The position numbers were made by a program, and so were the translations under genes. DNA of 64,000 bases from Bacteroidia bacterium. Lineage in GTDB: Bacteria; Bacteroidota; Bacteroidia; AKYH767-A; OLB10. Shown piece after piece: positions 12,636-15,278 of the stretch (positions are counted from its first letter, which is position 1; the number at the start of each line of letters is the position of its first letter). The notes below the pieces were generated by a model that was not told the DNA's origin, made no database searches, and worked only from the letters and a program-made list of their open reading frames with translations. Location of the stretch: NCBI GenBank assembly GCA_016788165.1, contig JAEUTH010000038.1, forward strand, positions 62,001-126,000, in the 5' to 3' direction.

Positions 12636-15278
12636 ATGAAAAATTTGTCCTTTATTAAAAAATCACACACACACACACACACACACACACACACAACAAA
12701 AATCAGCAGTTGTGCAAGAAAAATCTTATTTATTTTAATACTGATGGCTGCCGGCAGTTTTACACATGCACAAACGGCCTGCAACAATTGCCCGGGCACT
12801 GTTTACACAACCGTTAACTCAAGTACCATGGGCAATTTACTAACTAATGCAAAGTTTTGCATTACCAATCAATTGATTGTTGATGCCGATTTAACACTCG
12901 ACAAATGCATCTTACTTATGAGTGCAGGGGCATCTATTGTTATTACAGGCAGCAACAAATTAAAAATTACCAATAACACCTATATAACATCGTGTGGTTA
13001 CGGTAATGGCACTATGTGGCAAGGTATTCATGTTACAAGCGTTAATCTCAATAATTTTTCAAAACTTGAAATAAGCAACGGTGCCATTATCGAAGATGCA
13101 ATTACGGCTGTATATACAGAAAGTCAGGATGCATACTGCGAAATAAAATTAGACAATGCACACTTTAATCGTAACTACTATTCTGTTTTTATTGACAGGG
13201 CCAACCCTGCACTTTTACCATTGGTAACACGTTGTGGTTGGTTAGGTTTTATTGACCGGTGCACATTTACTTGCAATTCAACTTACAACTCAGGTATTAA
13301 TGATTTGCTGCAACCACCAAATAATACAATGCGCTCTAAAACCCATGTCGAAATACGTTGTGCCCAGCGCTTTAATAATATTCCAAATGGTTTAATACCT
13401 ATAACCAATTCTGTTTTCGATAACAGCAATACAGGCGTTTTCAGCTTCTATAGCGAAACCATGTTAAACAGCAATACTTTTAATAACCACAACATGGCTG
13501 TGGATGCTTATTTTGACGGTGCGCTTACCATGTTTGATAATACCATCAGCAATGTTTCATTCGGTATTGATGTGCACGATGCTGTACACCATGTTGAATT
13601 GTTGCAAAATACAATTACCGGCCCGGCTATGCGAGGCATTTCTGTGCGCAAATCTTGTAGTGGCCCAAACGATGTTTCATTTAACACCATTACCGATTGC
13701 AGCTATGGCATTCGGATAATTGGCAATGGAATTTCAAATACAGCCGGTTATAATTTTAGGTTGCATCAAAACAATATTAGCAACAGCAGTGGTGCTGCCT
13801 TTGGTATTGATTTTATTGAGACCCCTAATTTTAGTCCCGCACAAACCAATCTTTATTTTGTTGACATTACCGAAAACGAAATTGCAGGAGTGGCAGTGGG
13901 CATACGGCTTACCAATGGCTACAAAGCAAAAATTGCTGATAACAATGTAGCCATCATTGACAATACCGGTACCTTGGGTATTGGCGCCATAAATAGTTAC
14001 ATGCCTCATGTAATTGCAAACAATGTTGCAGGCCCAAGCCTTAATGGTCAATGCGAAAATACAGGCCTCAATACAACAGGTATTCTTATAAGCAATACAA
14101 GCGATGCCGTAGTTAACTGCAATTTTGTAGATCAATTAAACAAGGGTGTCGAATATTTTGGCTTTACAGGCAATGCCACAGCCACTGCATTTTTCGAAAA
14201 CACATTAGGCTTTTGTTTACACCAGTTGTATTTAAATAAAGTAGCCTATGGCTTGGGCAATATTGGCAATGCCAGCTTTGTAGCCAATAATAGTTGGACG
14301 GGCCTTAACTGTACATCGGGCAGCTACTTAAATACGATGGCTGATGCTTCTAATATACAGCCGCCCCTAAGCAACTTCACAAATATTTATGAAAACGTAC
14401 CTGTACCCTTTCTTAATGATTGGATAAATATTGGAAGCGAGTGTCAATTCGTACCTACCAATGTAGTTACCAATGGTTATTGCAGCCATACACCACCCGA
14501 TGATTTAATAGCCCTGATTAATAACATACAAAACGATACGTTGTACGATGCCAATTATCGCTTTTGGCAACACCAGTACCTGATGCAGCGTGTGCAAGAA
14601 GATGTTGCTTTAACCGATTCCTTAATTGCATTGCAAGTATTGATAGACTCCCTGGCACAAACCAACTTAGGTTATATTACCGCCATTACCGATACTGCCC
14701 GTAACTATCAGTTAGATAGTATGACACAAGCCACACTTGCTGCCTTGCAGGTATTAAACAATCAGGTACAGCCCGATTTAGTTTTAGAAACCAATTACAA
14801 AGCCGTTAATCAAATTTATTTGTATGCCTTGGTTAATGGCATTAACGGTTTAAGTACCTACACTAAAAATGTGCTTGCAAACATTGCTGCACAATGTCCT
14901 TTATCGGGCGGTAAAGCCGTTTACCTTTCGCGTTTTATATTAGAAATGGCAACAAATAGTATTGTTGAGTATAGCGATGATTGCAGTAATTACCAAGTGG
15001 TTATGCGCTATAAAAATGCACAACCTGCAAGTAACAACACAGCACAGGTTTATATAACCGATAATAAAATTAATGTAAGGTTTAACTATCAAACCACAGC
15101 CAATTTCACATTTGCACTTTATAATACCTTGGGCAATTGTGTAGCGCAGTATGTTATAATTAAAAATACCGATGATGTATTTTTTGATTTGCCCAATGTA
15201 AATGGAATGTACATCTATAAAATTACAGGCCTGGCAAGTGGCATTATAAATGGCAAACTTTTATCGGTAAAAAAATGA
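12636..15278 (+). CDS. Secreted parallel beta-helix protein with T9SS-like tail and (CA)16 tract in its signal peptide
   Basis: The start at 12636 (MKNLSFIKKS) is preferred over an in-frame ATG at 12507, which would add 43 residues encoded by repeat-containing DNA. The product has 880 residues. Its export signal is unusual: ten alternating His-Thr residues encoded by (CA)16, then KILFILILMAAGSFTHAQ. Residues 50-590 hold right-handed beta-helix rungs (ITNSVFDNSNTGVFSF, NTISNVSFGIDVHDA, NAHFNRNYY). A helical segment follows (about 620-780). The last 75 residues resemble a T9SS tail (FALYNTLGNCVAQ, NGMYIYKITG, ending LLSVKK). Gain or loss of CA units would shift the frame into nearby stops, so expression may be phase-variable. 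The next gene overlaps by ATGA, so it would be affected too. Function unknown; surface carbohydrate or host/prey contact is a guess. Confidence 0.85.
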   Translation: MKNLSFIKKSHTHTHTHTHTTKISSCARKILFILILMAAGSFTHAQTACNNCPGTVYTTVNSSTMGNLLTNAKFCITNQLIVDADLTLDKCILLMSAGASIVITGSNKLKITNNTYITSCGYGNGTMWQGIHVTSVNLNNFSKLEISNGAIIEDAITAVYTESQDAYCEIKLDNAHFNRNYYSVFIDRANPALLPLVTRCGWLGFIDRCTFTCNSTYNSGINDLLQPPNNTMRSKTHVEIRCAQRFNNIPNGLIPITNSVFDNSNTGVFSFYSETMLNSNTFNNHNMAVDAYFDGALTMFDNTISNVSFGIDVHDAVHHVELLQNTITGPAMRGISVRKSCSGPNDVSFNTITDCSYGIRIIGNGISNTAGYNFRLHQNNISNSSGAAFGIDFIETPNFSPAQTNLYFVDITENEIAGVAVGIRLTNGYKAKIADNNVAIIDNTGTLGIGAINSYMPHVIANNVAGPSLNGQCENTGLNTTGILISNTSDAVVNCNFVDQLNKGVEYFGFTGNATATAFFENTLGFCLHQLYLNKVAYGLGNIGNASFVANNSWTGLNCTSGSYLNTMADASNIQPPLSNFTNIYENVPVPFLNDWINIGSECQFVPTNVVTNGYCSHTPPDDLIALINNIQNDTLYDANYRFWQHQYLMQRVQEDVALTDSLIALQVLIDSLAQTNLGYITAITDTARNYQLDSMTQATLAALQVLNNQVQPDLVLETNYKAVNQIYLYALVNGINGLSTYTKNVLANIAAQCPLSGGKAVYLSRFILEMATNSIVEYSDDCSNYQVVMRYKNAQPASNNTAQVYITDNKINVRFNYQTTANFTFALYNTLGNCVAQYVIIKNTDDVFFDLPNVNGMYIYKITGLASGIINGKLLSVKK
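12664..12695 (+). repeat. (CA)16 dinucleotide microsatellite in coding sequence
   Basis: Sixteen uninterrupted CA units, codons 10-20 of the gene starting at 12636. A change of one unit moves reading into a frame ending at TAA 12736-12738 or at TAA 12815-12817. A change of three units keeps the frame. Confidence 0.97.

Follow-up and report, generated by a model that had tools for sequence, protein, structure and literature searches.

The locus considered here raises a simple question: why should a gene for a secreted protein carry a long, uninterrupted dinucleotide repeat a few codons downstream of its start? The gene lies at 12636-15278 on the forward strand of the window, by which we mean the whole 64,000-nucleotide stretch of DNA that was analysed. 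The frame opened by the ATG at 12636 stays open for 880 aa, and the gene is predicted to be ON. An earlier note on this DNA had placed sixteen CA units within codons 10-20 of this frame, and the repeat is indeed there: the (CA)16 tract occupies 12664-12695 (+), is 100% pure, and its count, equal to 1 modulo 3, is that of the ON frame. The early stops that the note had described for slipped tracts are present as well, since the first stops after the tract fall at 12736-12738 (+) in one shifted frame and at 12815-12817 (+) in the other. The tract is part of a signal peptide of about 46 aa (12636-12773, +), which reads MKNLSFIKKS(HT)5TKISSCARKILFILILMAAGSFTHAQ in translation and whose cleavage site was assigned by eye. 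Under a first-order model based on the dinucleotide frequencies of the window, chance would yield about 1e-13 (CA)16 tracts per 64 kb; for tracts of at least 8 CA units, the expectation in the 3.34 Mb of the genome is about 0.007. The tract is not a chance occurrence.

The 12636 protein has a single Pfam match, the NosD right-handed beta-helix (PF05048, 27.3 bits versus a gathering cut-off of 23.6). A partner gene encoding 481 aa (15275-16720, +) follows it, and the ATGA overlap between the two open reading frames was found as previously described. Both products had been regarded as T9SS substrates. This stands for the partner, whose T9SS type A sorting domain scores 46.9, well over the curated cut-off, whereas the sorting domain TIGR04183 in the 12636 protein reaches 20.2 bits, below the curated cut-off of 23, and is suggestive of such a role. 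Given the ATGA overlap, the partner might be switched jointly with the upstream gene.

Is the tract peculiar to this gene? The draft assembly of the genome (46 contigs, 99.8% complete) was searched with a 195-nt leader query, and all copies found have E 1.5e-29 or better. The leader, approximately 195 bp long, is present at 19 places, the window copy included. In the window it spans 12563-12748 (+) and comprises a probable promoter, the 5'UTR, the start codon, the CA tract and the signal-peptide core. The promoter, recognized by eye, consists of TTTG/C about 18 nt ahead of a TAnnTTT box and is of the Bacteroidota type. Common to the 19 copies are the sequence preceding the start, the start codon and the tract, and most copies also have a signal-peptide core like KISSCASKILFILILMA. 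The start codon is ATG in 17 of the 19; the ATG has been lost in copies C18 and C3, and in C43 a stop directly follows the first ATG, which is replaced by a second one. A pattern search of the genome retrieved 14 CA tracts of at least 6 units, every one of them in a leader copy, and the eight loci with tracts of at least 11 units all have the same flanks. Across the 13 copies that entered the leader alignment, the leader and start codon are conserved while the tract varies. Where the loci carry different bodies, homology stops near the expected signal-peptide cleavage site.

The tracts range from 3 to 18 units. The longest is that of C24end (18), followed by the window copy (16), C37 (15), C43 (14), C42 (12), C8 and C5 (11 each), C13b and C4 (9 each), C24mid (8), C39 (7), C15, C20 and C22 (6 each), C13a, C10 and C18 (5 each) and C3 (3); in C31, 13 CA units stand behind CACG, giving 15 dinucleotides in total. 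Between these paralogs, all of one genome, tract length changes faster than the flanks. C42 and C24end show 4 differences in the leader flanks and have 12 and 18 units, respectively, and the window copy and C39 are separated by 18 flank differences and 9 CA units. C15 and C20 keep an equal count of 6 at 4 differences, which suggests that stability may fall as tracts lengthen. With 5-7 units there may be hardly any slippage, and the OFF state of such copies is perhaps permanent.

Theoretically, such counts could be an artefact of the draft assembly, collapsed or mixed among repeated copies. Numerous copies do adjoin contig ends (eight leader copies end at contig edges, so that their bodies are incomplete downstream), and the terminal stretches of C4 and C13b are identical, both with 9 units. 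However, the longest tract measures just 36 bp, the window copy lies within a 157-kb contig with flanks of its own, and C42 and C24mid are complete within their contigs. We consider an assembly artefact highly improbable.

Read from the conserved start, 17 of the 19 copies are OFF. The body is reached from the start codon solely in the window copy and in C39, the product of the latter being a 42-aa stub. In the remaining copies, wherever enough sequence is present to tell, a stop follows within about 18-30 codons. The sequences of C13b and C4 break off 15 bases past the tract, and it is from the frame of these bases that they are called OFF. Set against an assumed one third of copies ON, the excess of OFF copies is marginal (P 0.02-0.05, for copies that are not independent of each other). 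One may ask whether OFF copies are expressed anyway, by ribosomal frameshifting or from a start codon located after the tract. An in-frame ATG does occur inside the hydrophobic stretch (LILMA), yet a protein started there would be without the charged region and would retain little of the hydrophobic core, and in the OFF copies that were read, no ATG, GTG or TTG upstream of the core gives access to the body frame. Expression of this kind seems extremely unlikely. Use of another start farther upstream was ruled out by the reading frames.

The bodies behind the leaders are diverse. C24mid has an intact body of 1092 codons behind an OFF leader; it is weakly related to the 12636 protein (25% over the C-terminal part) and ends in a T9SS tail that passes the cut-off (34.6 bits versus 27). 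C42, also with an OFF leader, has an intact body of 899 codons with no accepted match to Pfam or to the T9SS sorting domain, which its repeats lead us to call propeller-like. The C42-type body recurs in C8, C24end, C43, C15 and C20 over the part present, and in C37 and C31 over a short stretch until the contig end. Because the beta-helix, C24mid and C42 bodies differ, at least three unrelated mature proteins share one leader.

Roughly half of the copies whose body can be read (C8, C5, C13a, C10, C22, C39, C18 and C3) have internal deletions or are stubs. C8 (L010) corresponds to C42 (L014) minus an internal 1965 bp, with the body frame kept, which suggests recombination within the propeller bodies. 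C5 (L009), paralogous to the window pair, has lost the beta-helix body, and little separates its leader from the C-terminal tail; a stretch about 85% identical to the partner at 15275 is present there, and this partner gene is frameshifted. The deletions, together with the frameshift in the C5 partner, the lost start codons of C18 and C3 and the OFF majority, are what one would expect of a multigene family for secreted proteins that underwent expansion in this lineage and is now decaying, in which most copies are pseudogenes, the tracts drift unselected and the window gene is the working copy. On the other hand, OFF leaders still front the intact 899- and 1092-codon bodies, and the leader and its start codon are kept while the tract varies. 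Moreover, the changes in the propeller bodies are mainly synonymous. C42 and C8 differ by 14 synonymous versus 10 nonsynonymous changes over 205 codons (P=0.0002 against neutrality), and C42 and C43 by 10 versus 8 over 138 codons (P=0.002 against neutrality); the second pair is the cleaner one, since C8 carries the internal deletion. The propeller-like bodies are under purifying selection. This is expected if the genes are used at least part-time, although it does not tell when they were last ON. Simple decay is the principal rival explanation, but in our view an unlikely one.

The reading that we favour, with a probability of roughly 60%, is a family of secreted proteins made phase-variable by slipped-strand mispairing through the shared leader cassette, the window gene being one member. 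CA units would be gained or lost during replication, so that the signal peptide and the mature protein are or are not in frame with the start codon. With a standard leader, counts equal to 1 modulo 3 are in the ON frame and all other counts lead to a stop about 18-60 codons past the start. Each copy would switch independently, and the cells of a population would thereby show different subsets of the proteins. This requires that slippage occur often and reversibly in living populations and that expression follow the frame. Slippage in the tract is the simplest account of a frame change between the start codon and the signal peptide. The switch proposed in the earlier note for a single locus gains support from the 18 further leader copies with 3-18 units, the 17 of 19 copies OFF and the intact, selected bodies; switching itself is what we infer from them. 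A broader version is possible but distinctly more tentative: the leader may be a portable contingency switch, extending from promoter to signal peptide and handed on by recombination to secreted proteins unrelated to each other, most of which would form a silent archive with few members ON per cell.

A different role for the tract has to be considered here. In older work on E. coli, CA repeats placed after the start codon reportedly stimulate translation. Translation initiation in enteric bacteria can benefit from ACA and CA-rich stretches close to the start (PMC3879156). The tract might be kept as a start-proximal translation enhancer, or as a His-Thr tuner of export, with frame changes as a by-product. 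An enhancer has no need for out-of-frame bodies, yet 17 of 19 are out of frame, and the lengths, 3-18 units, do not favour frame-preserving multiples. No support was found for the export tuning by in-frame steps of three units that had been suggested earlier. We regard either function as very unlikely to explain the tracts.

The order-level search covered 41 other genomes, of which 23 belong to the same family. Leader DNA and CA-tract patterns searched in the genus, family and order were found in the own genome only and were absent from the 41 others. The exact leader pattern was not found in scans of GTDB r220 genomes and of IMG/VR, both of which may have omitted the records closest to this genome. 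The 12636 protein has no relative found in GTDB r220 genomes and no match in a PDB sequence search; within the family, its matches elsewhere are limited to the C-terminal part, from about residue 630, and consequently offer no ortholog for comparing CA counts. Loss of MutS was considered as a cause of tract instability and rejected: MutS is present in the genome, and thus no general defect in repair is evident. T9SS tails and SprB repeats encoded in the window point to Bacteroidota as the phylum. A start-proximal (CA)9 pattern, sought in 395 genomes of the phylum, was matched in three others, one genome each. One of these, L101 in genome G052, has (CA)11 directly after ATGAAACCGATA, ahead of a stretch resembling a signal peptide, and the encoded protein contains an HELGH motif. 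The gene is OFF at (CA)11, and its ortholog in a congener is without a CA tract. L101 looks like an independent case of a start-proximal CA tract. The L101-type arrangement is not clear in the remaining two genomes.

The likeness to contingency loci of pathogens asserted in the earlier note holds for the mechanism; nothing shows that this organism is pathogenic. As in such loci, a long pure tract lies in the 5' part of the gene, a change of units leads to an early stop (the OFF paralogs also stop early), and tract length is more variable than the flanks, here between paralogs of one genome. The closest parallel comes from Helicobacter pylori. The 5' signal-peptide region of babB/babA/babC and oipA carries CT repeats that set the frame ON or OFF, and in the bab genes the repeat-bearing 5' part reaches paralogs by gene conversion (PMC4552749, PMC10564699). 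In both systems the gene for a surface or secreted protein has a dinucleotide tract few codons past the ATG, within the signal-peptide region; the frame decides between ON and OFF (here as read from the DNA), and several paralogs are involved. In contrast, the repeat is CA here and CT there, and the proteins are without homology. The present system, in which switching is a prediction from sequence, comprises 19 copies of the leader with tracts of as many as 18 units, and its bodies are beta-helix, propeller-like and T9SS-tail proteins. The 12636 protein falls outside the Hop/Bab family, matching NosD only in Pfam, and the C42 and C24mid bodies have no match to any outer-membrane family in Pfam.

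The contingency tracts of Haemophilus and Neisseria are mostly tetranucleotide or homopolymer. They share with the present tract a long pure repeat in the 5' coding part whose length sets the frame, but here one dinucleotide leader is common to unrelated genes. Simple-sequence contingency tracts of Haemophilus are treated, at least in part, in PMC2651432. The invertible promoters of Bacteroides offer a parallel from the same phylum, namely multi-locus on/off control of surface components. There, recombinases invert DNA at promoters; the mechanism proposed here, unlike promoter inversion, is replication slippage in the coding frame. To our knowledge, phase variation in Bacteroidota is known mainly through DNA inversion. 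Invertons are among the subjects of PMC11892184. No clear precedent for phase variation by SSRs, either in Bacteroidota or of T9SS substrates, emerged from the open-access literature that was searched, though one may exist. If our reading is correct, this 19-copy dinucleotide system would extend switching by replication slippage to Bacteroidota and to T9SS-type secreted proteins, and its shared leader would show how a contingency switch might spread among unrelated genes. The leader repeats may also explain the assembly breaks at many of these loci.

Other repeats accompany the leaders. Intergenic arrays of a degenerate heptamer, TTAGTGG (complement CCACTAA), lie around the window pair at 12464-12514, 12540-12553 and 16716-16746, and heptamer-like stretches are also found upstream of several other leader copies. 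A short palindrome, CTGCCC(A)AGGGCAGCCGTTGCTGTTT, precedes the leader in L010, L011, L009, L014 and L015; it is possibly a terminator, or else a dispersed repeat. Finally, the window encodes two giant secreted proteins of 2728 and 5164 aa on the reverse strand (27272-35458 and 35876-51370, respectively), both with many SprB repeats and one of the two proteins with a T9SS sorting domain together with HYR and GEVED domains.
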